This document shows positions 19,219 through 40,912 of a stretch of 64,000 nucleotides of DNA, one piece after another. Source of the stretch: Fuscovulum ytuae (lineage in GTDB: Bacteria > Pseudomonadota > Alphaproteobacteria > Rhodobacterales > Rhodobacteraceae); NCBI RefSeq assembly GCF_029953595.1, contig NZ_CP124535.1, positions 3,021,001 to 3,085,000 of the forward strand, written 5' to 3'. How positions within the stretch are numbered: the first letter of the stretch is position 1; every line of letters starts with the position of its first letter. The notes below the pieces were generated by a model. That model saw only the letters and a list, made by a program, of their open reading frames with translations. It ran no database searches and had not been told where the DNA came from. The position numbers were made by a program, and so were the translations under genes.

Positions 19219-19263
19219 CGGAATTTGACACAAATTCCGCGTCGATTTCTGACGCAGAAATCG
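19219..19263. repeat. 45-nt double-palindrome unit A1
   Basis: Two perfect 9-3-9 palindromes in a row: arm CGGAATTTG with its complement at 19231-19239 (loop ACA), then after the linker CGT, arm CGATTTCTG at 19243-19251 with its complement at 19255-19263 (loop ACG). The unit begins 22 nt after the phaB stop. The same 9-3-9-3-9-3-9 plan occurs at 19318, 40795 and 40868. Confidence 0.8.
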
Positions 19264-19265
19264 GT

Positions 19266-19298
19266 TCTGCCCTGCCGACAGTGGGTCGGCAGGGCAGA
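19266..19298. terminator. Strong hairpin downstream of phaB
   Basis: TCTGCCCTGCCGAC (19266-19279) pairs perfectly with its complement at 19285-19298 around loop AGTGG, a 14-bp stem. It sits between the two 45-nt repeat units, 69 bp after phaB. No T-run follows, so the hairpin may be part of the repeat structure rather than a simple intrinsic terminator. Confidence 0.5.
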
Positions 19299-19317
19299 CG
19301 GCGCAACGCCAAGGCCC

Positions 19318-19362
19318 CGGAATTTGCGTCAAATTCCGATCCGGTTTCTGCGCCAGAAACCG
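19318..19362. repeat. 45-nt double-palindrome unit A2
   Basis: Arm CGGAATTTG (19318-19326, loop CGT, complement to 19338), linker ATC, then arm CGGTTTCTG (19342-19350, loop CGC, complement 19354-19362). Relative to unit A1 the second palindrome carries an A-to-G change matched by T-to-C on the other arm, so pairing is kept. It ends 53 bp before the DMT exporter start. Confidence 0.8.
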
Positions 19363-19415
19363 TCTTTTCCTTACCCGACGCCCCGCCTAAGTTGCGCGCG
19401 GAACGCGAGGCAGGG

Positions 19416-20279
19416 ATGACGCAGAGAAACGCAACGGCCATCGGCTTTACCGCCGTTCTGATGTGGGCGCTTCTGGCGCTGTTCACGATCGGATCGGCCC
19501 CAGTGCCGCCCTTCCTTCTGAACGCGCTGACCTTTGGCATCGGAGGCACGCTGGGCCTGATCTGGACCCTGCGCAATGGCTTGGGCCGCCTGCGCGGCAT
19601 CTCATGGCGGGTTTATGCTTTCGGGATCATCGGCCTTTTCGGCTATCACGCGCTTTACTTTACCGCCTTCCGGATCGCGCCTGCGGCCGAGACCGGGCTC
19701 ATGGCCTATCTCTGGCCCCTCTTCATCGTGCTTTTCGCCAGCTTCCTGCCGGGCGAAAGGCTGCGCCCCATGGTCGTGATCGGGGCCATAATCGCCTTTG
19801 CGGGGGCCGCGCTGATCGTGCTCGGCCGGGATGCAGGCGGGGCGGCCACGCCGATGGGTCTGCTTCTCGGCTTTCTCTGCGCCCTGACATGGGCGGGCTA
19901 TTCCACCCTGTCGCGCCGTCTGGGTGATGTGCCCACCGAAAGCGTAACCATCTTCTGCCTTGGCACAGCCGTTTTGTCGGCGCTGGTGCATCCGATGCTA
20001 GAGGAAACCGTCTGGCCCGCCACCACCTTGGGCTGGCTGGCCATCCTTGGGCTTGGTATCGGCCCGGTCGGCGCGGCCTTCTTCACATGGGATATCGGTA
20101 TGAAGAAGGGCAATATCCAACTCTTGGGCGTTGCCTCCTATGCGGCACCGCTCTTGTCTACCCTTGCCCTTGTCGCCGCTGGCATCAGCCCGGCCTCATG
20201 GACGATCCTCGCCGCGGCGGTGCTGATCACAGGGGGGGCGGCGCTGGCAGCCCGGGCAGGCACCAGCGCCGGGGACTGA
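19416..20279 (+). CDS. DMT-family (EamA) exporter, YddG-like
   Basis: 287 residues, about ten hydrophobic segments forming two EamA halves. The sequence AAETGLMAYLWPLFIVLFASFLPGE in the first half and EEGQ-like DIGMKKGNIQLLGVASYAAPLLST in the second resemble the YddG aromatic amino-acid exporters. Substrate is inferred only by similarity. The start MTQRNATAIGF at 19416 follows CAGGG; the frame extends upstream through the repeats but that part is not membrane-like. Confidence 0.75.
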   Translation: MTQRNATAIGFTAVLMWALLALFTIGSAPVPPFLLNALTFGIGGTLGLIWTLRNGLGRLRGISWRVYAFGIIGLFGYHALYFTAFRIAPAAETGLMAYLWPLFIVLFASFLPGERLRPMVVIGAIIAFAGAALIVLGRDAGGAATPMGLLLGFLCALTWAGYSTLSRRLGDVPTESVTIFCLGTAVLSALVHPMLEETVWPATTLGWLAILGLGIGPVGAAFFTWDIGMKKGNIQLLGVASYAAPLLSTLALVAAGISPASWTILAAAVLITGGAALAARAGTSAGD

Positions 20280-20283
20280 TCCC

Positions 20284-20451
20284 TTACGCCTGCTGGAGGC
20301 GGGTCATTTCTTCCTTGAGCCTGAGTTTCTGTTTCTTCAGCTCAGCAATCCTCAGGGCATCCGCGCCGGGGCTTCGCTGCTCACGCTCGACCATTTCAGA
20401 GAGGTGCTCATGCTTGCGGCGCAGTTCCTGCAGATGCGAAGCAATCGTCAT
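20284..20451 (-). CDS. YdcH/DUF465 small helical protein
   Basis: 55 residues: MTIASHLQELRRKHEHLSEMVEREQ, then a second helix ELKKQKLRLKEEMTRLQ. Two antiparallel charged helices of this kind define the DUF465 (YdcH) family; function not established. It ends 4 bp from the convergent exporter gene. ATG 20451 has AGGACGG upstream. Confidence 0.8.
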   Translation of the reverse strand: MTIASHLQELRRKHEHLSEMVEREQRSPGADALRIAELKKQKLRLKEEMTRLQQA

Positions 20452-20531
20452 ATCCGTCCTCCTCATGACTGGTTCCGACAGGTTGAGTGCAACACAACCG
20501 TCGAGTCGTGTCACGGATAATCGATGCAGAC

Positions 20532-21317
20532 TTACGGAGGTGTTATACCATCCCGGCCAAAGGCCGCCGAAAGATCGCCGCCCATGCGCAACACCGCGTT
20601 GGCGCCGGGGGTATAGTTTTCCCTGTCCCCATCATGCGCCGCACCGTCATGCAGGGTGAAGGGGGCCAGCAGACGAAAGGCGGCTCGCCCCCCCTTCCTT
20701 GCCTGCAAGATCACACGCGGCGGCGCGCGGCCGATGCGCGGTGCCAAGGGCAGCACGCTGGCCGAGCCGAGTTTCGGTGCCAACGCCGCCAGCGCCTCAG
20801 GCAGGCAGGGCGTCGCGAAGATCATGGTCAGCCAGCCGCCTGGCCGCAGCCGCGCCCCCGCGGCGGCGACCCAGGCGGCGATGGGCGTATCCACCCTGAC
20901 CGCCCGATCCCGCCCCGCCACCGGCGAGGGCGTGCCCCCCGCGCCGTAATAGGGCGGGTTGGCGATCACATGGTCAAACTCCCGCCGCAGCACCTTTGGC
21001 ATCGCGGCCAGATCGCCCGTCACCACTTCCATTGCCATGCCATTTCGTTGCGCATTGCGTCGCGCCAAATCGGCATAGTCGGCTTGCACTTCCAACCCTG
21101 CCAGAACCACACCGGGCACCCGTGCCGCAAGGCACAATCCCGCCGCCCCCGCCCCGCAGCCCAGATCCAGCACGCTTTCCCCGGCCCGCGCTGGGCAGGC
21201 CGCGGCAAGCAGCACGGGGTCCGTCGCCGCGCGATAGCCGCGCGCGGGCTGCAACAGCCTCAGCCGCCCCATAAGGAATTTGTCATCCGACAGGGCATCG
21301 TCGGGGAACACGCTCAC
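20532..21317 (-). CDS. SAM methyltransferase, TrmN6-like
   Basis: 261 residues. Class I SAM fold with VLDLGCGAGAAGLCLA (motif I), ANPPYYGAGG (the NPPY motif of adenine-N6 or similar amino methyltransferases) and RPGGWLTMIF. This matches the tRNA1(Val) adenine-37 N6-methyltransferase family (YfiC/TrmN6). An N-terminal LLQPARGYRAATDPVLLAAACPA block is typical of the family. Coupled to the upstream DUF2007 gene by ATGA. Confidence 0.78.
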   Translation of the reverse strand: MSVFPDDALSDDKFLMGRLRLLQPARGYRAATDPVLLAAACPARAGESVLDLGCGAGAAGLCLAARVPGVVLAGLEVQADYADLARRNAQRNGMAMEVVTGDLAAMPKVLRREFDHVIANPPYYGAGGTPSPVAGRDRAVRVDTPIAAWVAAAGARLRPGGWLTMIFATPCLPEALAALAPKLGSASVLPLAPRIGRAPPRVILQARKGGRAAFRLLAPFTLHDGAAHDGDRENYTPGANAVLRMGGDLSAAFGRDGITPP

Positions 21318-21532
21318 TCTTGCCCCGTAGGGATGTCATTGTCGCGCAGCACGGCGCGGGCGATGAACAGATCCTCGTCCCGCACCATCAACCGGCGTGG
21401 CAATATGCCAAGGCTGCCGTCAAGGATGCTCATGTGGACGTCCAGATCGAATACCTCTATATCCTCCCCCTCAAGAAGGGCGGTGGCAAAGGCGATGATC
21501 GTCGGATCGGTGCTGCGCAAAAGCTCTTTCAT
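21314..21532 (-). CDS. DUF2007 domain protein
   Basis: 72 residues starting MKELLRSTDPTIIAFATALLEGEDIEVFDLD, the form of DUF2007 proteins (putative prokaryotic signal-transducing proteins), which often precede this methyltransferase in Rhodobacteraceae. It overlaps trmN6-like by ATGA and is divergent from the prenyl synthase gene. Function unknown. Confidence 0.75.
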   Translation of the reverse strand: MKELLRSTDPTIIAFATALLEGEDIEVFDLDVHMSILDGSLGILPRRLMVRDEDLFIARAVLRDNDIPTGQE

Positions 21533-21579
21533 GCGATAGAATTAAGGGGCGCCGCCCCGGAATGTCGAGAGGCGGGGGA

Positions 21580-22581
21580 ATGGGTTTGGACCAAGCAGCG
21601 CAGAAACCGCATGACCGGCTGGCGCATTGGCTGGCCGAGGATATGGCGGCGGTAAATGCTCTGATCCGCACCCGCATGGCCAGCGAACATGCCCCCCGTA
21701 TCCCCGAAGTGACGGCCCATCTGGTCGAAGCGGGGGGAAAACGCCTGCGCCCGATGCTGACGCTCGCCGCCGCGCGCATGTGCGGCTATCAGGGCGAGAA
21801 CCATGTCAAACTCGCCGCGACGGTGGAATTCATCCACACCGCGACGCTTCTGCATGATGATGTGGTGGATGAAAGCGAACGCCGCCGGGGCCGCCCCACG
21901 GCAAACCTGCTGTGGGACAACAAATCCTCTGTGCTGGTGGGCGATTACCTTTTCGCCCGGTCCTTCCAGTTGATGGTGGAAACGCAATCGCTGCGCGTCA
22001 TGGATATCCTTGCCAATGCCTCTGCCGTGATCGCCGAGGGCGAGGTGCTTCAACTCACCGCCGCGCAGGATCTTGGCACGACCGAGGCCATTTACCTTCA
22101 GGTGATCCGTGGCAAGACGGCGGCCCTGTTCGCCGCCGCGATGGAAGTGGGCGGCGTCATCGCCGCCGTGCCCGAGGCGCAGGTGCAGGCGCTGCGTGCT
22201 TATGGCGACGCGCTGGGCATTGCTTTCCAGATCGTCGATGACCTTCTGGATTACGGCGGCACCGATGCCGCCATCGGCAAGAACACGGGCGACGATTTCC
22301 GCGAAAGAAAGCTGACGCTTCCGGTCATCAAGGCCGTCGCAAAGGCCGATGCCGAAGAACGCGCCTTCTGGACCCGCACCATCGAAAAGGGCGATCAGCG
22401 CGACGGCGATCTCGCCCATGCCATGGCCCTGATGGATCGGCATGGCGCGATGCGGGCCGCGCGGGATGAGGCGCTGATGTGGGCCGAAACCGCGCGCCGC
22501 GCGTTGGATATCCTGCCCGCGCATGAATTGCGCGACATGCTGTCGGACCTTGCCGATTACGTGGTGGCGCGGATCAACTGA
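21580..22581 (+). CDS. ispB: Polyprenyl (octa/decaprenyl) diphosphate synthase
   Basis: 333 residues, trans-isoprenyl diphosphate synthase. First aspartate motif LLHDDVVDESERRRGRP, second FQIVDDLLDYGG, plus GGKRLRPML and RGKTAALF. It makes the ubiquinone side chain (decaprenyl in most Rhodobacteraceae). ATG 21580 (GGGGGA just upstream) gives the usual length; an in-frame ATG at 21562 adds six residues. Confidence 0.92.
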   Translation: MGLDQAAQKPHDRLAHWLAEDMAAVNALIRTRMASEHAPRIPEVTAHLVEAGGKRLRPMLTLAAARMCGYQGENHVKLAATVEFIHTATLLHDDVVDESERRRGRPTANLLWDNKSSVLVGDYLFARSFQLMVETQSLRVMDILANASAVIAEGEVLQLTAAQDLGTTEAIYLQVIRGKTAALFAAAMEVGGVIAAVPEAQVQALRAYGDALGIAFQIVDDLLDYGGTDAAIGKNTGDDFRERKLTLPVIKAVAKADAEERAFWTRTIEKGDQRDGDLAHAMALMDRHGAMRAARDEALMWAETARRALDILPAHELRDMLSDLADYVVARIN

Positions 22582-22676
22582 TCCGCGGTTCACGCAACGA
22601 TAACATCGGCGTCAGACCCGTTGCGCAGGCGTGATCCCACCCCGACCTCTCTGCCACGCAGATGATGGAGGGTTTC

Positions 22677-23018
22677 ATGCGCAGCTTATTCCTTCTTGCC
22701 GGTCTTGCCGTCGCAAGCCCAGCTTTTGCCAACACGACGCCTGCCACCGCCGTTGCCATTGGCGACCTGCAATATGGCAGCAGTGCCACGATCCGTGGCG
22801 TCGTCGATCAGATCACGGATGAGGATGAATTCCGCCTCCGCGATGAAAGCGGGTCGGTCCTTGTCTATATTGGCCCCGGCATCGTGCCCTTTAACACGGG
22901 TGAAGAGATCACGATCAGCGGGATCGTCGATCGCGACTTCGGGCGGCTCGAGGTTTATGCCCGCGAAGCGACCCGCGCCGATGGCAGCCTTGTCACCTTT
23001 GATCACCGCTATGACTGA
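22677..23018 (+). CDS. Secreted OB-fold (YgiW/NirD-like) protein 1
   Basis: 113 residues: signal peptide MRSLFLLAGLAVASPAFA, then a small beta-barrel with TIRGVVDQITDEDEFRLRDESGSVLVYIGP and GEEITISGIVDRDFGRLEVYA. This pattern (G-V-V...DEFRL-D-tG-V-V-igp) is that of bacterial OB-fold (BOF) periplasmic proteins. ATG 22677 is chosen for GGAGGG upstream. A clear paralogue lies 80 bp downstream. Ligand unknown. Confidence 0.72.
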   Translation: MRSLFLLAGLAVASPAFANTTPATAVAIGDLQYGSSATIRGVVDQITDEDEFRLRDESGSVLVYIGPGIVPFNTGEEITISGIVDRDFGRLEVYAREATRADGSLVTFDHRYD

Positions 23019-23097
23019 TCCGGGCAGGCCGCCCCTTGCGAAGGGCAGGCGGCTTCCCCACCTCCCTAGACAACAAAAACACGTCAGGGAGATGACG

Positions 23098-23424
23098 ATG
23101 ATCCGTTCCGCCGCGATGGCTGCGGTTCTGCTTTCAGCCTCGGCCGCCTTTGCGACACCTGTTCCCATCACCAAGGCCCCGCGCGGCCAGCCCGTCACCC
23201 TATCGGGCAAGGTGCTGCGCATCACCGATACTGATGCCTTCCGATTAAAGGATGAAACCGGCGTGGTCACCGTCTATGTCGGCCCCAATGACCTGCCGGT
23301 CGAGGTGGGCGAAGAGGTCACCGTTCACGGCGCGCTGGAGGAAGGCTTCCCCCCCGAATTCGTGGCCTGCGCCCTGCGCCGCGCCGATGGGCGCGAGGTG
23401 GCCTTCCGTCACGACTGGGGCTGA
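23098..23424 (+). CDS. Secreted OB-fold (YgiW/NirD-like) protein 2
   Basis: 108 residues, signal peptide [19 protein letters not shown] and the same core as the preceding gene ([41 protein letters not shown]). It is therefore a tandem duplicate. ATG 23098 lies 6 nt after AGGGAG; ATG 23092 is too close. The last 16 bp overlap the convergent ispE gene. Confidence 0.7.
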
Positions 23425-24251
23425 AGAAGCGGCGCATCCGCCACCCACCAGCCCGGTTCCGCCGCCCGGATGGCCCGCGCGGCGGCACTGGCCGAAAGCG
23501 GATCGGCAAATAGCCCGAAACAGGTGGCCCCCGATCCCGACATCCGCGCCATCAGGCATCCTGTCTGCGCCGAAAGCTGCGCCTTCACCCGCCCGATCAC
23601 GGGTTGCAGCGCGATGGCGGGCGGTTCCAGATCGTTCCGCTGCATCATCAGAAAGGCCGCAAGCTCTGCCGCCGTCTTCAGGCGCGGCAGATCGCGCGGC
23701 AGGGGGGCATTCTCCGCCCGCGCCAGCGCGCGAAAGATCGACGGTGTCGAAACCGCCACGCCGGGATTGGCCAGCACCAACCACGCGTCCGGCAAGGCGG
23801 GCAGGGGGGCCAGCCCCTCGCCAATCCCCGTCATGCGCACGGGGCGGCCTTCCAGACAGACCGGCACATCCGCGCCAAGCGCCAGCACGGTGGCGGCATC
23901 GGGCAGCGAGCGCCCCGACAGCCGTGCCAGCAGGCGCAGGGCGGCGGCGGCATCCGCCGACCCGCCGCCGATGCCCGATGACACAGGCAGGTGCTTTACC
24001 AGCACGATCTGCGCTGAAAGCCCCATCGCCCGCGCGGCGCGCAGAACAAGGTTATCCCCCTCGCCCGACAGTCCCGCCGCCATCGGCCCGGTCACCGAAA
24101 GGGACGGGGGATCGGCCAGCGTCCCGCTGACCCGATCCCCCACCCCGGCAAAGACCACCATGGAATCAAGCAGGTGATAGCCATCCGCCCGCCGCCCCGT
24201 GACATGCAGGCAAAGGTTGATCTTGGCCGGCGCGAATTCAGTTGCTGCCAT
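23409..24251 (-). CDS. ispE: 4-diphosphocytidyl-2-C-methyl-D-erythritol kinase
   Basis: 280-residue GHMP kinase: [25 protein letters not shown] at the N-terminus, the ATP loop [18 protein letters not shown], and the C-terminal [12 protein letters not shown]. It phosphorylates CDP-methylerythritol in the non-mevalonate isoprenoid pathway. Its first 14 bp overlap the end of the TPR gene upstream, so the two are likely coupled. Confidence 0.94.
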
Positions 24252-25947
24252 TCGCCACTTCGGTCAACGGTTTCGCGCCTTCTTCCGCCAGAACGGCATC
24301 AAGTCCGATCTCCAGCTTGCGACGAATGCGCTTGGCGTCCTTCTCTTCCGGGTCAAAGGACAGCGCGCGGTGCCATTGGAACTGCGCCTCCAGCTTGCGG
24401 CCCACGGCCCAATAGACATCGCCCAGATGATCCGTCACCACCGGATCGACGGGTTCCAGAAGCGACGCCCGCTCCATCGGTTCGACTGCGTCTTCATAGC
24501 GGCCCAGCCGGAACAGCGCCCAGGCAAGGCTGTCGATGATATATCCCGCATCGGGCTGCGCCGCGACGGCGCGTTCAATCATTCCCAGCGCCTCGTCCAG
24601 ATTTTCGCCCCGGTCGACAAAGCTGTAGCCCAGATAGTTCAACACCTGCGGCTGATCCGGGTTCAATTCCAAGGCGCGGCGGAAATCGGCCTCGGCTTCG
24701 GGCCAATTCCCCGCGCGTTCGTTGCTGATCCCACGCGAATAATACAGCGTCCAGTGCCGCTGTTCGGTCTTGGCGATCTGGTCGATGGCGGCGCTGTAAT
24801 AGGGGATGGCATCGGCAAAGCGTTCCTGCCGCCGCAGCGCGTCACCCATCGCGGATTGGACCTCGACCAGATGGCCATGGCTGCGGGTCAGGGCCTGCAA
24901 CACCTCTAGCGCTGCGTCCACCTTGCCTTCCGCGATCAGCGTATCGGCACGGCCCACCTCGGCCACGTGATAGGCCGGGTCATCGGCCGGGATCGTGGCA
25001 TAGACCTCGCCCGCCAGGGCGAATTGATCCAGCGCTTCCAGCATCCCGCCCGCCAGCAACCGCCCCTCGGCATGATCGGGGCGCAGATGCCCCGTAACGC
25101 GGGCATAGATCAGGGTATAGCCATCCTCGGCCTCGCCGCGCAGGGCGGTGGCAAGGGTGAAAAACACCTCTGCAATCCCGTCCTGCGCATTGCGCACGAT
25201 GTCAAAGGGAACAGGCTCCCCCGCCGAAAGCCTTGCGCGCAGGGCATCAAGCTGGGGGTCGGCCTCTGTCCCGAAGGCACGGTCCAAGAGGGCCAGCGCA
25301 TCCGGGTTCCGTTCCAGCTGGCTTAGGATCTGCGCATGCGCTACCGCACCCCGCCGCATCAGGACGATCTGCCCCGCCTCGCGCCCCGACAGAATATTGT
25401 CCGCCCCCTCGAAATCCCCGACCGAGGCCAGCGCAAGCGCCTTATGATACAGGCCAAACGCCTCAAGCCCCGGCGATTTCGCGAGCGCGTCAAAGGCATC
25501 CAGCGCATCCGACATGCGCCCTTCGCCAAGGCCGGCCCAAGCCATCACCAGATCATCAACCAGCCGCCCGACCGTCCGCCCCGCCTTGATATCGGCGATC
25601 AGCCCGGAATAGTCTTCGCGCTTCGCCTGATCGGCCAGCAGGGCGATATAGGCCGGCTGGCTGCGCCCGCCCTTCTGCACCAATTGCCGCGCAAGCTCTG
25701 CCGCGCGGTCCACCTCGCCAAGGCTCATATGCGCGATCACCGCGCCTTCCAGCGTGGCCGGATCGTTCATCCCCGCCATAATCAGACGGTCATACCACCG
25801 CGCCGCTTCTCGGAAATCGTTCTCGGATGCCGCCACTCGGGCGGCAAGAAAGGCCCCTGCCGATCCGTCATAGGCCTGTTGCTGCGCGGCGACGGGCAGG
25901 GCCATCACCGAGGCAAACAGCAGGGCGGGCAGGAAACGGGTCGGCAT
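24238..25947 (-). CDS. Periplasmic or membrane-attached TPR protein
   Basis: 569 residues with signal peptide [22 protein letters not shown], then repeated helical pairs; the C-terminal third has clear TPR units ([46 protein letters not shown] and the following ones). ATG 25947 is set by the signal peptide. Role unknown; the family is commonly found beside ispE in Rhodobacteraceae. Confidence 0.82.
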
Positions 25948-26010
25948 CAGGCAACTCTCCGGCGCGAGGGATGGGGGAAAGCTAGCCGCGCCTGCCCCCG
26001 CTGGCAATCG

Positions 26011-26036
26011 GGCCGGGGGCATTTCGCCACCCGGCC
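26011..26036. terminator. Possible terminator after ETF-QO gene
   Basis: GGCCGGG (26011-26017) and CCCGGCC (26030-26036) can pair with a 12-nt loop, 33 bp beyond the stop of the minus-strand ETF-QO gene and upstream of the TPR gene. There is no T-run, so confidence is low. Confidence 0.3.
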
Positions 26037-26068
26037 TGCTGTCCTACACGGAAATGTCACCGCTTGGG

Positions 26069-27715
<1,647 letters not shown>

Positions 27716-32412: not shown

Positions 32413-33366
32413 ATGACCGATACCCTGACCCTGGCCCCCACGACCGACGGCCTCGCCCGCGCGGCGGGTCTGTTGCGCGCAGGCGGCTTGGTCGCCTTTC
32501 CCACGGAAACGGTCTATGGCCTTGGCGGCGATGCACGAAATGACCGGGCGGTGGCGGCGATCTTTGCTGCCAAAGGACGGCCCAGCTTCAACCCCCTGAT
32601 CGTGCATGTCCCCGATATGGAGGCCGCGCGCAGCGTGGCCCGCTTCGACGCGCGGGCCGAGGCATTGGCGGCGACCTTCTGGCCCGGTCCTCTGACCCTT
32701 GTCCTGCCCCTGCGGCTTGATGCCGGGATATCGCCCCTCGTGACGGCGGGCCTGCCCACGGTGGCCGTGCGCCTGCCCGCACATCCCGTGGCGCAGGGCT
32801 TGCTGCGCGCCTTTGGTGGGCCGCTCGCGGCACCTTCGGCCAATCCGTCGGGCAAGGTGTCGCCCACGCGGGCGGATCACGTGCTGGCGGGGCTTTCAGG
32901 CCGTATCGTGGCGGTGGTCGATGGCGGGCCCTGCGCGGTGGGGGTGGAATCCACCATCATCGGGTTGGACGGTGACCCCGCCCTCCTCCGCCCCGGCGGC
33001 GTGACGGTCGAGGCGCTGGAGGCCGCCCTTGGCCAATCCCTGCAGGCGGGCGGGTCTGAAACCCGCCCCAATGCGCCCGGCCAACTGGCCAGCCATTACG
33101 CCCCCGGCGCGCCGGTCCGGCTGAACGTCACCGCGCCCGAGGCGGGCGAGGTCTGGGTGGGCTTCGGCCCCTGTCCCGGCGCGGCGCTCTCGCTTTCTGA
33201 AACGGGCGATGATGTCGAGGCGGCGGCCCGCCTCTTCCATATTCTCCGGCAGGCGGATGATCTGGCAGGTCCCGCAGGCCGCATCGCCTTTGCCCCTATC
33301 CCCGACCGTGGCCTTGGCCGGGCCATCAACGACCGCCTTCGCCGCGCCGCCGCCCCCCGAGGGTAA
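32413..33366 (+). CDS. L-threonylcarbamoyladenylate synthase (Sua5 type)
   Basis: 317 residues: YrdC/Sua5 domain with GGLVAFPTETVYGLGGDA, KGRPSFNPLIVHV, LPLVLPLR-type LTLVLPLRLDAG, APSANPSGKVSPT and STIIGL, followed by a C-terminal Sua5 domain starting at SHYAPGAPVRLN. It makes threonylcarbamoyl-AMP for the t6A37 modification of tRNA. ATG 32413 lies in the divergent gap before the acyl-CoA dehydrogenase. Confidence 0.92.
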   Translation: MTDTLTLAPTTDGLARAAGLLRAGGLVAFPTETVYGLGGDARNDRAVAAIFAAKGRPSFNPLIVHVPDMEAARSVARFDARAEALAATFWPGPLTLVLPLRLDAGISPLVTAGLPTVAVRLPAHPVAQGLLRAFGGPLAAPSANPSGKVSPTRADHVLAGLSGRIVAVVDGGPCAVGVESTIIGLDGDPALLRPGGVTVEALEAALGQSLQAGGSETRPNAPGQLASHYAPGAPVRLNVTAPEAGEVWVGFGPCPGAALSLSETGDDVEAAARLFHILRQADDLAGPAGRIAFAPIPDRGLGRAINDRLRRAAAPRG

Positions 33367-33442
33367 TCACCGCCCTTGCAACCCCGCCCCCGATCCCGTT
33401 CCCTAGGGCCGCGACAGGGGGGGCAGGCACGGGGGGCAGGCC

Positions 33443-33925
33443 ATGACAGACGACATCCATACCACCGCCGAGGCGATCGAGGCTTCGGCCCTCCCGCGCG
33501 CCAAGGCCGTGCATTCCGACCCGTCGCAATGCGGCGCGCTGGAAACCGCGCCCCTCCCCAAGGCCGCCACCCGCCGCAAGGTCGAAGAGAAAAGCCCCGC
33601 TGAATGGGCCTATGAGCGCCTCATCCTTTATATCCAGAACTTCGAGGCACAGCTGGACGCCGATCACGAGGTGGCGATGGGTTTCGCAGGCGGGCAGGCC
33701 GGGGTTCTGGCCATCGAAGGCGTCGGCTTCTTCGACCCCGATCTTGTCACGTTCTATGGCCGCGACGAGGACGGGCTGAAGACCCAGCTCATCCAGCATG
33801 TCAGTCAGTTGAACGTCCTTCTGCGCGCCATTCCAAAGGAACAACCCGAAGAACCGCCCCGCCGCATCGGCTTTCAGATGATGTCGCAATGGGCAGGCGG
33901 CGAATCCGGCGATGCTTCGGCCTGA
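33443..33925 (+). CDS. Conserved hypothetical protein (DUF6173-like)
   Basis: 160 residues. A variable start, then AEWAYERLILYIQNFEAQLDADHEVAMGFAGGQAGVLAIEGVGFFDPDLVTFYGRD, which is strongly patterned like a conserved domain; from memory it resembles DUF6173. No catalytic motif is evident. It stands alone with 76 bp upstream. Confidence 0.6.
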   Translation: MTDDIHTTAEAIEASALPRAKAVHSDPSQCGALETAPLPKAATRRKVEEKSPAEWAYERLILYIQNFEAQLDADHEVAMGFAGGQAGVLAIEGVGFFDPDLVTFYGRDEDGLKTQLIQHVSQLNVLLRAIPKEQPEEPPRRIGFQMMSQWAGGESGDASA

Positions 33926-34000
33926 TGGGGCGCGCTGCAAGGGGTGACAGGCAGGCGTGAATCGGGTATTCGGCGCAGAAAGACGGAAAAGGGAACCGAC

Positions 34001-34147
34001 ATGGCCGACCATAACCACGAATTCAAGCCGGGCAGCATGGACATCCGGGCGCAGGAAAAGACCTTCGCGGGCTTCATGAAGTTCACGCAATGGGGCGTGA
34101 TCATCATCTTCGCGATCCTGATCTTCCTCGCCCTCGCCGGCGCCTGA
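34001..34147 (+). CDS. aa3-type cytochrome c oxidase subunit IV
   Basis: 48 residues: MADHNHEFKPGSMDIRAQEKTFAGFMKF then one membrane helix (WGVIIIFAILIFLALAGA). This is the small bacterial aa3 oxidase subunit IV seen in Paracoccus and Rhodobacter, encoded apart from the main oxidase genes. ATG 34001 is the start consistent with the family. Confidence 0.88.
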   Translation: MADHNHEFKPGSMDIRAQEKTFAGFMKFTQWGVIIIFAILIFLALAGA

Positions 34148-34182
34148 GGCAGGACCCGCCCCCTTTATTTCAGGACCTGATC

Positions 34183-34791
34183 ATGTTGCGCGCCGTTTTG
34201 GCACTTCTCGCGCTCCTCACGCTTGCGGCTTGCGGGGCAGAACCCGTCTGGGCCCCCGAGGAACGGGTGCAGGCGGCGCGCTACGTGCATGATGGCCCGA
34301 ACGCGATCACGCTTTTTACCGTGATCAACAACCGCTCCAACGCCGGGGCGCATAGCGGGCTGATGGTCAACGATTCCGAACGGATCATGTTCGATCCGGC
34401 TGGAACCTGGAACCATCCCCGCATCCCCGAACGCAACGATGTGCATTACGGGATCACCCCGCGCATCGTGGATTTCTACATCGACTATCACGCGCGCGAA
34501 ACGTTCCGCGTGGTCGAACAGACCATCGTCGTGTCACCCGGCGTGGCCGATCTGGTCGCGCGCCGGGTCAAGGAATATGGCGCGGTGCCAAAGGCGCAAT
34601 GCGCGCGGTCGATCACCGATGTTCTGCGTGGCGTGCCCGGGTTCGAATCCATCCGTTCCACTTGGTATCCGAACAAGCTGATGGAAGATTTCGGCCGCCT
34701 TCCCGGCGTCACCACTCGCGTCATCTATGACGAGGATGCCGATAAGAATCACGGCGTCCTTCTGGTGCAATCGGCGCAATCGCCGCTTTAA
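34183..34791 (+). CDS. Lipoprotein, possible permuted NlpC/P60-like fold
   Basis: 202 residues with signal MLRAVLALLALLTLAACGAE (lipobox LTLAAC, C17). The mature part has GAHSGLMV (H57) and, later, KAQCARSITDVL (C140). His first and then an N/Q-C-x-x-S/F-x-x-D-x-L motif is the order seen in circularly permuted NlpC/P60-like hydrolases, where Cys and His are catalytic. This is a motif-level inference. It lies 35 bp after the oxidase subunit gene and its stop overlaps that of azlD. Confidence 0.6.
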   Translation: MLRAVLALLALLTLAACGAEPVWAPEERVQAARYVHDGPNAITLFTVINNRSNAGAHSGLMVNDSERIMFDPAGTWNHPRIPERNDVHYGITPRIVDFYIDYHARETFRVVEQTIVVSPGVADLVARRVKEYGAVPKAQCARSITDVLRGVPGFESIRSTWYPNKLMEDFGRLPGVTTRVIYDEDADKNHGVLLVQSAQSPL

Positions 34792-35114
34792 CCCACCGTC
34801 GCCAGCAGCACGAACAGCGTCCCGCCTCCGGCAAGGATCGCCCCCATCGTGCTGCGCGTGGCCACCCCCACCGCCAGCGTGACCAAGGCAGCGGCGAGCC
34901 GCGCGGGGTCCGTCTCGCCTCCCGTCGCGGGCGGCCACAAGACGCCCGGTGCCACCAACGCGGGCAGCACCGCCACCGCCGTGTAGCGCAGGGCCCGCGT
35001 CAGCCAAAGGGGCAGGGGCCGCGCCCCCAGCGTGCCAAGAAAGGAAAAGCGGATCGCATAGGTGCCAAGGGCCAGCGCGGGCAGCACGATCCAGAAGGTG
35101 GTCTTGTCGATCAT
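34788..35114 (-). CDS. azlD: AzlD-type branched-chain amino acid transport subunit
   Basis: 108 residues, four hydrophobic segments, starting MIDKTTFWIVLPALALGTYAIRFSFL and containing RALRYTAVAVLPALVAP, the AzlD pattern. Together with AzlC it would form a two-part exporter of branched-chain amino acids. It overlaps azlC by ATGA (35111-35114). Confidence 0.85.
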   Translation of the reverse strand: MIDKTTFWIVLPALALGTYAIRFSFLGTLGARPLPLWLTRALRYTAVAVLPALVAPGVLWPPATGGETDPARLAAALVTLAVGVATRSTMGAILAGGGTLFVLLATVG

Positions 35115-35815
35115 CCCCGCCGCAACTCCAACCACCGCTCCAGCCCCGCACCCACCGCCATGGCGACCGATGCCGCCACCAGCAAGCCCGTGCCATAAGG
35201 CATCCCCGCCAAGGCCAGCGCCATCACGATCGACACCCCCGCCGCCGCCAGATGCGGCAGGCTGCGCAGCATTGGCGCAACCATGGCCAGAAAGGTGATC
35301 GGCAGCGCGAAATCCAACGCATAATCCGGCGGGATCGCCCGCCCGATCATCGCCCCCGCAAGCGACGCCATGAACCACAAAGGCGCCACCGCCACCACCG
35401 CACCAAAGAACACCGCCCGCTTTTCCTGCGCGGTCATGCCGGGGCGGCGGTCAATCTCGGCCACGGTTGTGGCGAAGCTCTGATCCACAAGGAAATAGGC
35501 CATGAGCGCCCGCGACCGCAGCGGCAATTCCCCGAAATGCGGGGCCAGCGTCACCGAATACATCACCATCCGCAGGTTCACCGCCAGCGCTGTGGCCAGC
35601 ACCACCAGAACCGGCGCATTTTCCTGCATCGTCTGAAGCGCCGCGAATTGCGACGCGCCCGCAAAGACGGAAACGGAAAACAGCATCGCCTCCGCGACGT
35701 TTAGCCCGGCTTCCGTTGCCACCACCCCGAACAACAGCGCGAAAGGGCCGACGACCACCGTCATCGGCAGGGCGGCCAGCAGGCCGCGCAGAAATGCGGT
35801 GCGATGGGGGGTCAT
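35111..35815 (-). CDS. azlC: AzlC-type branched-chain amino acid permease
   Basis: 234 residues with about six to eight hydrophobic segments. FAGASQFAALQTM, NLRMVMYS and FLVDQSFATT are hallmark AzlC motifs. Translationally coupled to azlD. Probable amino-acid export; substrate range not shown by sequence. Confidence 0.9.
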   Translation of the reverse strand: MTPHRTAFLRGLLAALPMTVVVGPFALLFGVVATEAGLNVAEAMLFSVSVFAGASQFAALQTMQENAPVLVVLATALAVNLRMVMYSVTLAPHFGELPLRSRALMAYFLVDQSFATTVAEIDRRPGMTAQEKRAVFFGAVVAVAPLWFMASLAGAMIGRAIPPDYALDFALPITFLAMVAPMLRSLPHLAAAGVSIVMALALAGMPYGTGLLVAASVAMAVGAGLERWLELRRG

Positions 35816-35896
35816 GGGCGAAGAGACATCCGGCCTCGCGCTTTACCTTGCGCAAGGAAGGGCTTAGGCCTTTCCGCAGCAAAGGGAAAGATCAGG

Positions 35897-36487
35897 ATGC
35901 GGATTTTCGGGGTGATCCTTGCAGGCGGGCAGGGGAGGCGGATGGGCGGGGCCGACAAGGCCCTTCTGCCGCTGGCCGGTCGCCCCCTGATCGCCCATGC
36001 GCTGGATCGGCTGGAACCCCAGGTCGAAGGTCTGGCCATCAGCGCGAATGGCGATCCCGCGCGGTTCGCGCCCTATGGTCTGACGGTCTTGGCAGATCAG
36101 GACGGCTCGCATGGCCCCCTCTCCGGCCTGCTCGCCGCGCTGGGCTGGGCCGCGTCCCACGGCGCGACCCATCTGGTGACGGCTCCCGTCGATGCGCCCT
36201 TCCTGCCGCCCGATCTGGTGCCGCGCCTTCTTCTGGCCGCCGAAGGCACGGGGGTGGCGCTGGCCCGATCGGGTGGCAATGATCATCCCACCTGCGGCCT
36301 TTGGCCCGTCACCGCGCGCGCGGCGCTGGCCACCTTCCTTGCCAGCGGCGCCAAGCCGCGCGTCCGCGACTTTGCCGATAGCCTTGCTGCGGCCCGCGCC
36401 GATTTCCCCGCCGATGGGGCCTTCGCCAATCTCAACACGCCTGAAGACCTTGCCACCGCCGAGGCACGCATAAGGGGCGCGGCATGA
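35897..36487 (+). CDS. mobA: Molybdenum cofactor guanylyltransferase
   Basis: 196 residues, GT-A nucleotidyltransferase: GVILAGGQGRRMGGADKALLPL at the N-terminus and LVTAPVDAPFLP as the metal-binding region, both typical of MobA. It attaches GMP to molybdopterin. It overlaps mobB by ATGA. ATG 35897 lies at the conserved MRIFGVILAGG start. Confidence 0.9.
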   Translation: MRIFGVILAGGQGRRMGGADKALLPLAGRPLIAHALDRLEPQVEGLAISANGDPARFAPYGLTVLADQDGSHGPLSGLLAALGWAASHGATHLVTAPVDAPFLPPDLVPRLLLAAEGTGVALARSGGNDHPTCGLWPVTARAALATFLASGAKPRVRDFADSLAAARADFPADGAFANLNTPEDLATAEARIRGAA

Positions 36488-36975
36488 GGGTCTATGGCGT
36501 CATCGGCTGGAAAAATTCGGGCAAGACCAGCCTGATGGAACGGCTGGTGGCTGAAATCACCGCGCGTGGCTTCTCCGTCTCTACCGTCAAACATGTCCAT
36601 CACGAGGTGGACCTTGATCAGCCGGGGAAAGACACCTTCCGCCACCGTCAGGCCGGCGCGCGCGAGGTGGTGCTGGCCTCCAAGGATCGCTTTGCCCTGA
36701 TGGTGGAACATCGCGGCCCCGAACCCGACCTTGCCGCCGTGCTGGCCCGGCTTGCCCCCGTCGATCTGGTGCTGGTCGAAGGTTACAAGCGCGATTCCCA
36801 TCGCAAGGTCGAGGTGTGGCGGCGCGAAACCGGCCAACCCCTGATCCAGACGGGCGACCCGCTGGTCCGCGCCGTGGCGACGGATGCGGCGGGCCTTGCC
36901 CTGCCCGTGCCGGTCCTTGACCTGAACGATACCAAGGCGGTTGCCGATTTCATTTTGGCCGAGGTTGGGCTGTGA
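36484..36975 (+). CDS. mobB: Molybdopterin-guanine dinucleotide biosynthesis protein B
   Basis: 163-residue P-loop protein with GWKNSGKTSLMERLV (Walker A), VKHVHHEVDLDQPGKDTFRHRQAGA and LVLVEGYKRDSHRKVEVWR, all typical of MobB, the GTP-binding helper of MobA. Coupled to mobA before it and to the next gene by GTGA (36972-36975). Confidence 0.92.
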   Translation: MRVYGVIGWKNSGKTSLMERLVAEITARGFSVSTVKHVHHEVDLDQPGKDTFRHRQAGAREVVLASKDRFALMVEHRGPEPDLAAVLARLAPVDLVLVEGYKRDSHRKVEVWRRETGQPLIQTGDPLVRAVATDAAGLALPVPVLDLNDTKAVADFILAEVGL

Positions 36976-37862
36976 CCATCGCAGCATTCGACACCGTTGC
37001 CATCGTGGATTGGTCGGCAAGCAATGGCCCGTCACCCGCCCGCCCCTCTGCCGATGCGATCTGGATCGGCACCGCGACCGCCGCAGGGACGGAAGCCCGC
37101 TATTTCCGCACCCGGGCCGAGGCCGAGGCACAACTTTCCGCCCTGATCGATGCCGAACGCACGGCAGATCGGCGCCTTCTGATCGGCTTTGATTTCCCGA
37201 TGGGCTATCCCAAGGGCTTTGCCGCCCGCCTGACCGGGCAGGCCGATCCCCGCGCCCTCTGGCGGTGGCTGGCCGAACGGGTGACGGATATGGGCAACCG
37301 CAACAACCGCTTTGCCGTGGCGGATGAAATCAACGCAAGTTTCGCCGCAAAGGCAGGGGCAGGGTCGGCGGGGGGCCCCTTCTGGGGCCGCCCCTCCGGC
37401 CTGCCCCTGTCCCATCTGCCAGAGCGAAAGGCCGTCGATTACCCCGCCCTCGGCCTGCCCGAACGCCGCGCTGTGGAGCGGTGCGTTCCCCGCGCGCAGC
37501 CTGTGTGGAAGCTCTTCACCACAGGCTCCGTCGGGTCGCAGGCCTTGATGGGCCTGCCCATGATCCACCGCCTGTCGCAATGCGCAGGCACCGCCGTCTG
37601 GCCTTTCGATCCGCCCGACACCTGCCCCATCGTTCTGTCCGAGGTTTACCCCTCGCTCCTCGCCCCTCTCGTCGCGCAACAGCCCGGCATCAAGGACGCG
37701 GCGCAGGTCACCCTTCTGGCCCGCGCGCTTTGGCGGCTTTCCGATCGGAGAGCGCTTGATCCCCTGTTTGCCGCCAAGGATATCGATGATCTCCACGAGG
37801 AAGGCTGGATCCTTGGCGCAGGCCATGAAACCGCGCTTCTCGCCGCGGCGGAGGGGCCATGA
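36972..37862 (+). CDS. Uncharacterised protein of the mob operon
   Basis: 296 residues, GTG start overlapping the mobB stop. The N-terminal VAIVDWSASNGPSPAR and RLLIGFDFPMGYPKGFAARL resemble the RNase H-like DUF429-type fold, in which short acidic motifs (VDWS, GFDFP) sit at strand ends. I do not know its role. Tight coupling on both sides (GTGA before, ATGA after) suggests a function tied to molybdenum cofactor, or merely operon inheritance. Confidence 0.6.
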   Translation: MTIAAFDTVAIVDWSASNGPSPARPSADAIWIGTATAAGTEARYFRTRAEAEAQLSALIDAERTADRRLLIGFDFPMGYPKGFAARLTGQADPRALWRWLAERVTDMGNRNNRFAVADEINASFAAKAGAGSAGGPFWGRPSGLPLSHLPERKAVDYPALGLPERRAVERCVPRAQPVWKLFTTGSVGSQALMGLPMIHRLSQCAGTAVWPFDPPDTCPIVLSEVYPSLLAPLVAQQPGIKDAAQVTLLARALWRLSDRRALDPLFAAKDIDDLHEEGWILGAGHETALLAAAEGP

Positions 37863-38452
37863 CCCGCACCGCCATCCGCATCGAACGGGGCCTGCCCGAT
37901 CACCTCCGCGCCGAGGCCGCCGCCCTTTACTGGCAGGCCTTTGGCGGCAAACTGGGCCGCGTCCTTGGCCCCGAAGAGGCCGCCCTACGCTTCCTCGCCC
38001 GTGTCATGCGCGCCGACCACTGCCTGACCGCCATCGACGCCGAAGGCCGCCTGCTGGGCCTTGCCGGGTTCAAGACCGGCCAGGGCAGCTTTGCCGGGGG
38101 AACCGATGCCGACCTCCGCGCCGTCTATGGCCAATTCGGCGGGCGCTGGCGCGGGCTTGTCCTGCGCCTTCTGGGCAATGAGGTGGACAACCGCCGCTTC
38201 CTGCTGGACGGCCTCTGCGTCAGCCGCGCCGCCCGTGGCCAAGGCGTCGGATCGGCGCTTTTGGAGGCCATCGTGACCGAGGCCCGCGCCCGTGGTTATC
38301 CGGCGGTCCGGCTGGATGTGGTCGATACAAACTGGCGTGCCAAGGCCCTTTATGAACGGCAAGGCTTCGTCGTGGCCCGCACCGCAGGCATCGGCCCTTT
38401 GCGCCTGATCTTCGGCTTCAACGCCGCCCATACGATGGTGCGGACAGTCTGA
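37859..38452 (+). CDS. GNAT-family N-acetyltransferase
   Basis: 197 residues. GNAT core: LDGLCVSRAARGQGVGSALLEAIVTEARARGYPAVRLDVVDTNWRAKALYERQGF, with the acetyl-CoA loop ARGQGVGSA and the C-terminal ALYERQGF. Substrate unknown. Start overlaps the preceding stop by ATGA, making it the last gene of the mob run. Confidence 0.85.
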   Translation: MTRTAIRIERGLPDHLRAEAAALYWQAFGGKLGRVLGPEEAALRFLARVMRADHCLTAIDAEGRLLGLAGFKTGQGSFAGGTDADLRAVYGQFGGRWRGLVLRLLGNEVDNRRFLLDGLCVSRAARGQGVGSALLEAIVTEARARGYPAVRLDVVDTNWRAKALYERQGFVVARTAGIGPLRLIFGFNAAHTMVRTV

Positions 38453-38573
38453 TCCCGGTCCCTTCGCGGCCCCACGCGAAAAAGGTGCATTCGTTCAAAA
38501 TCTATGCATACTTTCGGATGCCCCAAGCGAAAGGCGGCGGGGCCAAAACCGAAGAACCTAGGGAACCAGTGGA

Positions 38574-38999
38574 ATGCTCAACGAATTCAAAACCTTCATC
38601 GCCCGTGGCAATGTCGTCGATCTTGCTGTCGGTATCATCATTGGCGCGGCCTTCACCGCCATCGTCAATTCGCTTGTCGGCGACCTGATCAACCCAATCA
38701 TCGGCTTGGTCACGGGCGGGGTGGATTTCTCGAACCTCTTCATCGATCTGTCGGGCACCGACCCGGCCTCGCTTGCCGCTGCGCGCGATGCAGGCGCGCC
38801 GGTCTTTGCCTATGGGGCCTTCATCACCGCCGTGATCAACTTCCTGATCATTGCCTGGGTGGTGTTCCTTTTGGTCAAGGCGGTGAACAAGCTGAAAGAG
38901 GCCACCGCCAAGAAAGAGGCCGCCGAAGCCGCCGCCGCCCCGGCTGGCCCGACCGAACTTGATATCCTGATGGAGATCCGCGACGCGCTGAAGAAGTGA
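38574..38999 (+). CDS. mscL: Large-conductance mechanosensitive channel
   Basis: 141 residues: [35 protein letters not shown] (first helix with pore glycines), a periplasmic loop, second helix [23 protein letters not shown], and a C-terminal charged helix. It opens on strong membrane tension to release solutes in osmotic downshock. Confidence 0.95.
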
Positions 39000-39019
39000 C
39001 ATCCGCGTCTGTGGCGAAA

Positions 39020-39043
39020 GGGCCGCGGGTCATCCCGCGGCCC
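39020..39043. terminator. Bidirectional hairpin between mscL and ald
   Basis: GGGCCGCGGG (39020-39029) and CCCGCGGCCC (39034-39043) form a perfect 10-bp stem with loop TCAT in the 52-bp gap between these convergent genes, ideal for a shared terminator. ATCTCATTTC follows on the plus strand. Confidence 0.65.
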
Positions 39044-39051
39044 ATCTCATT

Positions 39052-40170
39052 TCAAAGTGCCAAGGCCTCGGCCCCGCTGATCGAGGGCAGACCCAGCGCC
39101 GTGCCCACCGCCTCATAGGTCAGCTTGCCCTTATGGGTGTTCAACCCGTTCAACAGATGCCGATCCTCGGCGCAGGCGCGTTTCCACCCCTTGTCCGCCA
39201 AGGCCAGCATGAAGGGCATTGTCGCATTCCCCAAAGCCAGCGTTGACGTCCGCGCCACCGCGCCCGGCATATTCGCCACGCAGTAATGCAGGATGCCGTC
39301 CACCTCATAGATCGGGTCCTGATGGGTGGTCGCGCGGCTCGTTTCGAAACATCCACCTTGATCGATTGCCACATCCACGATGGCCGCGCCGGGCTTCATC
39401 GTCTTCAACTGCGCCCGCGTCACCAGCTTTGGTGCTGCCGCGCCGGGGATCAGCACCGCCCCGATCACCATATCGGCCTCGGCCACAAGGTCCGCCGTTA
39501 GCCCTGCGCTGGCATAGCCCGTCTTCACCGTGCCGTGGAAGATGTCGTCCAAATAGCGCAGGCGCGGCACTGACCGATCAAGGATGGTGACATCCGCCCC
39601 CATCCCCGCCGCCACCCGCGCCGCATGGGTGCCGACCACCCCGCCGCCGATCACCACCACCTTGGCAGGCAACACGCCGGGAACCCCGCCCAGCAGCACG
39701 CCACGCCCGCCATTGGCCTTTTGCAGCGTCCATGCCCCGACCTGCGGGGCCAATCGCCCCGCCACCTCGGACATCGGGGCCAAGAGGGGCAACCCGCCCC
39801 GGTCATCCGTCACGGTTTCATAGGCAATCGCCGTGACGCCGGATTTCAACAGGTCATGGGTCTGTTCCGGATCCGGGGCAAGATGCAAATAGGTGAACAA
39901 CACCTGCCCCTCACGCAGCCGCGCCCGTTCCACCGCCTGCGGTTCCTTCACCTTCACGATCATCTCGGATTTGGCAAAGACCTCGGCCGCATCGGCGGCG
40001 ATGGCCGCGCCTGCTGCGATGTAATCGGCATCGGCAAAGCCCGCGCCCAGCCCCGCGCCGGTTTCCACCAGCACCTCATGCCCATGTGCCACCGCTTCGC
40101 GCGCCGCAATCGGCGTCATGCCAACGCGAAACTCCTGCGGCTTGATCTCTTTCGGACATCCGATCTTCAT
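39052..40170 (-). CDS. ald: Alanine dehydrogenase
   Basis: 372 residues. N-terminus [20 protein letters not shown], substrate region VKVKEPQ, NAD site [28 protein letters not shown], and [11 protein letters not shown] with the [21 protein letters not shown] block. It interconverts alanine with pyruvate and ammonia. ATG 40170 is the family start. Divergent from an Lrp-type regulator, which very likely controls it. Confidence 0.95.
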
Positions 40171-40273
40171 CTGACTTCTCTCTCTCCCGTGCGGGCCCTC
40201 CTCGGCCCGGATGGGAAAAGCTTCCGCCAGATCGGATGCAATTGCTTTGAATACTGGATGACGCCGGGCAGGC

Positions 40274-40296
40274 TTTGCGGTAACTTTCACCGCAAA
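40274..40296. promoter_or_regulatory. Palindrome between ald and the Lrp-type gene
   Basis: TTTGCGGT (40274-40281) and ACCGCAAA (40289-40296) are perfect 8-bp arms with spacer AACTTTC, 29 bp before the regulator start and 104 bp before ald. This symmetry and place fit an operator for the Lrp/AsnC protein encoded alongside. Confidence 0.6.
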
Positions 40297-40325
40297 TGGC
40301 ACTTTTGGCGAAGGTTTCTTCCACA

Positions 40326-40787
40326 ATGTCCGAACTTGACGCAACCGACCGCCGTATCCTGACCGTCTTGCAGAAGGAAGGCCGCATCACCAATGCCGAA
40401 TTGTCGGAACGGGTGAACCTCTCACCCTCGGCCTGCCACCGCCGCACCCAGCGGCTTGAGGAAGAGGGGTTCATCGCCGGTTACGTGGCGCTGCTCGACC
40501 CCCGCCGCCTAGGCCGTCCGACGACGGTCTATGTGGAGATCACGCTGCAAGGGCAGGCCGATGAATTGCTGGATGCGTTTGAACGTGAGGTGGCCCGCAT
40601 TCCCGACATCCTCGAATGCCATCTGATGGCGGGGCAGGCGGATTACCTTTTAAAGATCCTCGCGCAGGATACCGAAGACTTCGCGCGCATCCACCGTCAG
40701 TATCTGTCGCGCCTGCCGGGGGTCCGTCAGATGCATTCCTCCTTCGCATTGCGGACGGTGGTGCAAACGACGGCGCTGGCCGTGTGA
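40326..40787 (+). CDS. Lrp/AsnC-family regulator
   Basis: 153 residues. Winged HTH ([47 protein letters not shown]) and a C-terminal RAM effector domain ([23 protein letters not shown] ... [12 protein letters not shown]). Divergent to ald, so probably an alanine-responsive activator like AldR types. ATG 40326 starts directly before the HTH. Confidence 0.9.
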
Positions 40788-40794
40788 GGGGGGA

Positions 40795-40839
40795 CGGAAT
40801 TTGACGCAAATTCCGCACCGAAATCTGGCGCAGATTTCG
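40795..40839. repeat. 45-nt double-palindrome unit B1
   Basis: Arm CGGAATTTG (40795-40803, loop ACG, complement to 40815), linker CAC, arm CGAAATCTG (40819-40827, loop GCG, complement 40831-40839). It begins 8 nt after the stop of the Lrp-type gene. Confidence 0.8.
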
Positions 40840-40867
40840 GTGACCCACCGGGTACAAGGTTGACAGA

Positions 40868-40912
40868 CGAAATCTGCGTCAGATTTCGCCGCGATTTCTG
40901 CGCCAGAAATCG
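40868..40912. repeat. 45-nt double-palindrome unit B2
   Basis: Arm CGAAATCTG (40868-40876, loop CGT, complement 40880-40888), linker CCG, arm CGATTTCTG (40892-40900, loop CGC, complement 40904-40912). Unlike the other three units its first palindrome is the CGAAATCTG type, so units are assembled from interchangeable palindromes. Confidence 0.8.

Follow-up and report, generated by a model that had tools for sequence, protein, structure and literature searches.

A repeat of twin perfect hairpins with fixed spacing at gene ends in Fuscovulum ytuae and its relatives

The present analysis concerned two clusters of short inverted repeats in a 64,000-nt stretch of the Fuscovulum ytuae genome, called the window in the following. 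The window contained eight hairpins without mismatches, each with arms of 9 nt and a loop of 3 nt, arranged as four doublets at a 24-nt pitch, and this element is referred to here as the twin repeat. The initial annotation had described 45-nt units of the form 9-3-9-3-9-3-9 at 19219, 19318, 40795 and 40868, and all arms of these units were indeed perfectly paired and fell into the four arm types given there. It had also located the clusters after phaB and an Lrp-type gene. The gene identities agreed with this, as both clusters came after + strand genes, for a short-chain dehydrogenase and an Lrp/AsnC regulator, and the former gene stands behind a thiolase gene, which fits phaB behind phaA. The loops were ACG, ACA or GCG on the left half of the clusters and CGT or CGC on the right half, and by these letters the second 45-nt unit of each cluster was inverted relative to the first. 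The positions in the window are listed below.

18472..19197, + strand: short-chain dehydrogenase (phaB-like) gene, with its stop 21 nt upstream of cluster 1
19219..19239, + strand: hairpin H1 of cluster 1 (outer left), CGGAATTTG-aca-CAAATTCCG
19243..19263, + strand: hairpin H2 of cluster 1 (inner left), CGATTTCTG-acg-CAGAAATCG
19266..19298, no strand: GC-rich spacer hairpin of cluster 1, 14-bp stem and 5-nt loop
19318..19338, - strand: hairpin H3 of cluster 1 (inner right, inverted), CGGAATTTG-cgt-CAAATTCCG
19342..19362, - strand: hairpin H4 of cluster 1 (outer right, inverted), CGGTTTCTG-cgc-CAGAAACCG
19416..20279, + strand: EamA transporter gene downstream of cluster 1, with the ATG at 19416 chosen as the start in this analysis
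40296..40787, + strand: Lrp/AsnC regulator gene, with its stop 7 nt upstream of cluster 2
40795..40815, + strand: hairpin H1 of cluster 2, CGGAATTTG-acg-CAAATTCCG
40819..40839, + strand: hairpin H2 of cluster 2, CGAAATCTG-gcg-CAGATTTCG
40840..40867, no strand: spacer of cluster 2; its sequence differs from that of the four other genus genomes with a quartet here
40868..40888, - strand: hairpin H3 of cluster 2 (inverted), CGAAATCTG-cgt-CAGATTTCG, with the same arms as H2
40892..40912, - strand: hairpin H4 of cluster 2 (inverted), CGATTTCTG-cgc-CAGAAATCG

A generic scan of the window for twin hairpins detected five pairs, compared with none in one shuffled copy. Four of the five were the units described above, and the fifth combined one of their hairpins with the GC-rich spacer hairpin. 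No further doublet of the 9-3-9-3-9-3-9 kind turned up in the window when perfect 9-bp palindromes with 3-8-nt loops were sought, and no Rfam match reached the gathering score anywhere in the window. On the minus strand at approximately 41077-41105, a GC-rich hairpin followed by a T-run, a terminator of the classical type, was found behind a short gene, presumably that of ribosomal protein S21. The minus-strand gene facing cluster 2 thus seems to have its own terminator.

The F. ytuae genome (4.19 Mb, three contigs) contained 80 sites matching the pattern CGRWWTYTGNNNCARAWWYCG, whereas the same pattern read backwards, used as a control, had none. The genome-wide count was therefore not at the chance level that would have refuted the initial annotation, and together with the generic scan against its shuffle it ruled out a chance origin of the hairpins. 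A wider pattern had 88 matches, of which the palindromic ones were all on the largest contig; a single match on contig 3 was not a palindrome. Sites of the hairpin pattern were present in all 19 genomes of the genus, with 1 to 118 sites each, while 41 of the 42 genomes outside the genus had none and the remaining one had a single site. The doublet pattern matched at least 120 stretches over named genomes. Among the matches listed (80), all were titled Rhodobacter, Gemmobacter, Tabrizicola, Pseudorhodobacter or Rhodobacteraceae, and the NCBI taxonomy now places two of these named species in Paragemmobacter, family Paracoccaceae.

The anatomy of the element was derived from the window together with 80 loci, and these 81 sources provided 297 hairpins in 82 clusters. 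The full unit is a doublet, then a variable spacer, then an inverted doublet. Judged by the loops, the orientation was ++-- in 42 of the 82 clusters and +-- or ++- in 23 more, and the sense loops were ACG in 207 hairpins, GCG in 60 and ACA in 21. Same-strand neighbors less than 30 nt apart were found at the 24-nt pitch in 130 of 131 cases, and at 23 nt in the other. In many copies a tenth stem pair was added, leaving the neighboring stems about 1 nt apart. Pairing also appeared around the stems of 231 non-redundant doublets: the base preceding H1, a G in 85% of them, formed a pair with the first base of the linker 193 times (165 expected under independence), and the last base of the linker did so with the one following H2 125 times (92 expected). 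As the pattern-based sets accept at most one mismatch, their selection inflates the pairing percentage of the 64-doublet set described below, and fairer evidence comes from off-pattern partners and generic letter-free scans. At a distance of 22-26 nt, a partner with 8 or 9 of its 9 positions paired was detected for 115 of the 121 hairpins of the F. ytuae genome and the window, in comparison with 42 of 2420 random places, and 25 of the 55 off-pattern partners with at least six pairs were perfect.

The spacer lengths grouped at 18-19, 23 and 28 nt. Helical phasing of the two halves was rejected, as periods of 12 and 13 outscored 10.5 on these lengths. Kissing loops between the left and right halves were rejected as well, since no loop covariation was found, and so were structured spacers, for which the excess was only mild (mean z of -0.71; 26 of 127 below -2). 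Some loci were arranged differently. In L063:7206-7658 (titled Gemmobacter straminiformis), the left doublet was present four times at approximately 102 nt, and L028:3416-4113 (also titled Gemmobacter straminiformis) showed a similar array with inverted doublets at 110 nt. Locus L148 of the F. ytuae genome itself (C1:150418-150731) was a small tandem hairpin array with a 67-nt period and partly decayed partners.

The two hairpins of a doublet were found to be unlike in their arms. Identical arms occurred in none of the 231 doublets, in contrast to 30.3 expected and a minimum of 17 in 2000 shuffles; one identical-arm doublet is known (G007:C1:746560 and 746584), an exception to this rule. In 76 quartets, H1 equaled H2 in 0 (9.1 expected), H3 equaled H4 in 0 (8.6), H2 equaled H3 in 5 (15.9), one of them being cluster 2 of the window, and H1 equaled H4 in 1 (9.1), while the alternate hairpins H1 and H3 were identical in 15 (8.6) and H2 and H4 in 11 (9.3). 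With only the 56 distinct arm sets counted, H1=H2 and H3=H4 remained at 0 (6.2 and 6.0 expected) and H2=H3 was found in 2 (11.0 expected); the deficit of H1=H4 was weaker (1 against 5.6), 27 of the 2000 shuffles being as low. Isolated doublets were predicted to fold into twin hairpins with a P of 0.98 each. For copies constructed in the script with identical arms, the P of twin folding fell to 0.22 and that of one long hairpin was 0.77. Neighboring arms would thus need to differ, because identical arms fold as one long hairpin and not as two.

As to the arm sequences themselves, the types GAATC and GATTC were absent from the 548 perfect hairpins of the genus loci, where 65.8 and 6.1 were expected under positional independence. 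These arms would make a GANTC site, the sequence methylated by CcrM. Arm positions are generally not independent, and the absence may thus have another cause.

Orthologous clusters were matched through their flanks. Of 72 comparisons between orthologous hairpins in 29 quartets, 50 showed no difference in the arms, compared with 284 of 1552 between unrelated sites. The 22 differing comparisons had one to four changed positions, and in 20 of them both hairpins were perfectly paired. The covariation that had been claimed was thus confirmed, with arms either the same or changed on both sides at orthologous places, and free variation without compensation was not what the relatives showed. Cluster 1 had the same four arm types in the orthologous locus L051, where the GC-rich spacer hairpin was present with other letters. 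Cluster 2 had the same four arm types in genomes G006 (with a difference of one base), G008, G014 and G018, although its spacer and flanks had diverged. A quartet with the same arm types stood at the end of the Lrp gene in 5 of the 18 readable genus genomes, the 13 others showing no quartet in the 330 nt behind the gene; one more genome was truncated there. In addition, in a set of 64 doublets selected to differ in their arms, each hairpin of which could carry one mismatch at most, 97% of cells were paired and 256 contained two-sided changes, compared with 85 in shuffles.

The placement of clusters with at least two hairpins was determined with a home-made gene caller and 700 nt on either side. 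An in-sense stop codon lay within 40 nt of the edge in 31 of 37 F. ytuae clusters and in 44 of 59 clusters of other species. The F. ytuae gaps were convergent in 16 cases, tandem in 16 and divergent in 5 (8, 37 and 29 for 74 control gaps), and those of the other species were 22, 32 and 5, respectively (controls 32, 177 and 73). Convergent gaps were thus enriched over the controls, and no cluster was found inside a called gene in either set. In 5 of the 37 and 7 of the 59 clusters, the stop codon was a TGA made by the stem and loop of the element. As many-copy, short and extragenic palindromes near 3' ends and with few copies between divergent genes, the hairpins are repetitive extragenic palindromic (REP) repeats in the broad sense.

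The same architecture was also present in other genera, written in other letters. A covariance model of the doublet had matches in 13 of 149 genomes of the family, 11 of the 13 being outside the genus. Inspection of 37 model-matched places revealed many twins with other letters: those of G020 had CGGTTTCTT and CGAAATCTT stems, those of G189 had GC-richer stems with acg and cgt loops, and G124 carried a full quartet outside the genus. A letter-free twin scan (stems of at least 8, loops of 3-5, link of at most 6; 400 kb per genome) detected 2, 5 and 9 twins in three genomes of the family and none in a genome of another family, and five local shuffles per genome gave no twins. None of these 16 twins had identical arms, and one of the five in G189 was inside a called gene. 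In G036 (L323-L342) the loops were mainly atat or gcgc, making two loop families in one genome; eight of the nine twins had the same loop twice, and the ninth combined gcgc with gcac. Since neither G021 nor G036 had a covariance-model match, the twin architecture ranges wider than the model shows. Among the genes beside the out-of-genus twins, a homologue beside a cluster of the Paragemmobacter group was found for 8 of 96, compared with 35 of 1046 in the control. The keeping of the shape across different letters suggests that the shape itself is conserved.

Two known kinds of REP repeats were compared with the twin repeat. According to a 2013 survey (PMC3733652), the CGTC-tagged REPs are short palindromes of alpha-Proteobacteria with 8-9-bp stems, often in inverted pairs, less than 20 bp from 3' ends between converging or tandem genes, and without a dedicated transposase. 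The survey calls pairs of unlike CGTC hairpins frequent but without obvious explanation, and head-tail dimers negligible. The stem length, the frequent inverted pairs, the location near 3' ends and the unlike pairs are common to both repeats. However, the twin repeat has 3-nt loops instead of 4-5 nt, a C-G instead of an A-T stem base, and a head-to-tail twin at a fixed 24-nt pitch. The survey counts frequent G-T pairing in favor of a role as RNA, and in the twin repeat such pairing is without excess. The CGTC tag, the only tag variant counted (not TGTC or CCTC), occurred in the 231 doublets once at the 5' foot, twice behind H2 and 20 times between the hairpins. The GTAG REPs and REP doublets forming hairpins (REPINs), associated with REP-associated tyrosine transposases (RAYTs), resemble the twin repeat, as described in PMC6006769 and PMC8049555, in being inverted hairpin pairs with a variable spacer, intergenic, and in families that vary between genomes. 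The defining tag was rare in the twin repeat, as GTAG and GTGG were found 0-2 nt 5' of the stem in 9 and 7 of the 231 doublets. The excerpts of PMC8632094 treat other motifs, not the twin repeat, and no description of the twin-repeat family was found in open-licence PMC papers, subscription papers lying outside the scope.

A non-autonomous REP-type mobile repeat, spread by a hairpin-recognizing transposase and having no host function, with 3' ends tolerating the insertion, would agree with the many similar copies per genome, the inverted pairs, the genus-specific letters, the presence and absence among species and the stop codons supplied by the element. Nevertheless, the Y1 transposase PF01797, the only transposase family searched, exceeded the cut-off in none of the 19 genus genomes (one 21.3-bit match was below it), while the same search gave matches in 5 of 14 control genomes. 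A RAYT-driven REP was thus ruled out, together with the rarity of the GTAG and GTGG tags. In addition, the two smaller F. ytuae contigs had no palindromic site where 5.5 were expected from the 80 sites, the exact doublet pattern had no match in viral contigs, and similar DNA was found neither for cluster 2 in a plasmid collection nor for cluster 1 in a phage collection, one cluster having been tried in each. Moreover, the copies do not decay freely, because the arms are conserved at orthologous sites although the spacers are not. We consider a purely mobile repeat unlikely.

As the tags, the loop length, the stem base and the fixed twin differ, and no RAYT was over the cut-off, the element was not filed under the GTAG or CGTC REPs. 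It is an untagged REP-like variant of unusual compound architecture outside both: the REP-like kind is already known, and the untagged fixed-pitch twin is a new variant of it. The initial annotation had proposed a selected structure or a mobile-like repeat family, and this proposal is supported by the genome-wide count, the compensated arms and the twins of other letters elsewhere. Taken together, these results indicate that the twin repeat is very probably a selected, structure-defined, REP-like 3'-end element kept by the host.

With regard to mechanism, a barrier at RNA 3' ends is a serious possibility, which we put somewhat below an even chance. The stop-codon placement, the conservation of orthologous arms and the predicted twin folding support such a function. 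Each twin would mark the 3' end of the gene running into it; when transcribed, it would form two stable hairpins hindering read-through by RNA polymerase and attack by 3' exonucleases, and the inverted second twin would act for the opposite strand. In the puf operon of Rhodobacter capsulatus, of the same bacterial order, mRNA-stabilizing 3'-end hairpins reportedly block exonucleases. The puf hairpins are a single operon-specific structure and no repeat family. Like intrinsic terminators, the twin repeat has stable hairpins directly behind stop codons, but it differs in lacking a T-run and in having an AT-rich stem core, two exactly spaced hairpins and an inverted second pair.

Several results weigh against the RNA barrier or against the unlike-arms rule attached to it. 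No U-tract followed the hairpins in the window or in the flanks of the 231 doublets, whose profile was GC-rich and not T-rich behind the inner hairpin, and classical intrinsic terminators were ruled out by a stem without a following U-tract. When the RNA of a whole quartet was folded, its two halves competed for pairing, and only 5 of 76 quartets were predicted to keep all four hairpins at P >0.5. In the F. ytuae genome alone, with nine quartets, none of the 34 doublets had identical arms where 3.8 were expected, a lack without statistical significance. The five divergent gaps among the 37 clusters included some clearly real ones (purD/xseA-type, mreB-type); full quartets made up similar shares of the clusters in tandem gaps (6 of 18) and in convergent gaps (6 of 16), and lone doublets had the expected orientation in only 8 of 12 cases. 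The mismatches pointed in the same direction. On the loop-defined strand there were 11 G-U, 10 A-C and 5 others, on the transcribed strand 11 G-U, 16 A-C and 14 others, and at stem position 7 in the 19 genomes 8 G-U and 7 A-C, two of these eight G-U cases having further mismatches.

RNA structures usually tolerate G-U far better than A-C. G-U was not in excess, and therefore the evidence leans away from a pairing maintained by selection on RNA alone. The mismatch pattern fits selection at the DNA level or a correction of palindromes during replication, and both are compatible with RNA use as well. In a DNA-level element, a protein of the gyrase or nucleoid type would bind the palindromes where they extrude at the 3' ends of genes, as cruciforms or as hairpins in single strands, and pairing would be selected in DNA. 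A-C mismatches as frequent as G-U are expected if pairing matters in DNA, the unit reads symmetrically on either strand, some clusters stand between divergent genes, and loops near-uniform within the genus and different between genera fit a trans factor changing with the lineage. E. coli REPs are described as gyrase- or nucleoid-type docking sites in PMC3733652. On the other hand, a DNA-level element does not by itself account for the placement at in-sense stops, a search limited to PF01797 gave no candidate protein, and if imperfect palindromes were rapidly corrected at replication, an RNA element would lose its G-U signal as well. A function at the DNA level is possible but doubtful.

Pairing could also have arisen by mutational bias without structural selection, if template switching at quasi-palindromes perfected the arms and changed both sides together. 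Intermediates were indeed rare: with no more than one mismatch allowed per hairpin, 26 of 574 hairpins had one, and G-U cases were about as infrequent as A-C cases. Such a bias leaves unexplained the fixed 24-nt pitch, the conserved orthologous arm types, the lack of identical neighbors and the gene-end placement, and we regard it as very improbable.

Returning to the selected 3'-end element, a broader proposal can be made, although we consider it rather unlikely in its full extent. The element class would be defined by geometry alone across many genera of one family, as two unlike perfect hairpins at a fixed pitch behind stops, often mirrored. From lineage to lineage, the letters of stem and loop would be exchanged but not the place or the shape, because a hairpin-reading factor co-evolving with the loop would use the twins as two-way gene-end boundaries, and quartet neighbors would be mutually non-pairing. 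REP-like repeats have so far been debated as parasites, terminators, RNA stabilizers or gyrase sites, and the twin family provides unusually clean evidence of a shape long kept at fixed places without a recognized REP transposase. The unlike-arms rule also bears on the unlike repeat pairs left unexplained in the 2013 survey (PMC3733652).

Among the listed pairs without hairpins (of 37), three orthologous sites had other hairpin-type elements instead. At one of these, G063 has a twin of other letters at the gene end where the Paragemmobacter group has a twin, a natural experiment with one gene end, two genera and twins of different letters. A second repeat, with the pattern GRGTATTTRNNNMAARATGAA, was also noticed; it had 46 sites in the F. 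ytuae genome and 0 to 53 per genome in the 19 genus genomes, and consists of GGGTATTTGGGCCAAGATGAA, with GC-rich hairpins nearby in L107. The GGGTATTTGGGCCAAGATGAA repeat or a similar one was located at two gene ends (L107:3980-4167 and L189 near 2000) where relatives carry the quartet.

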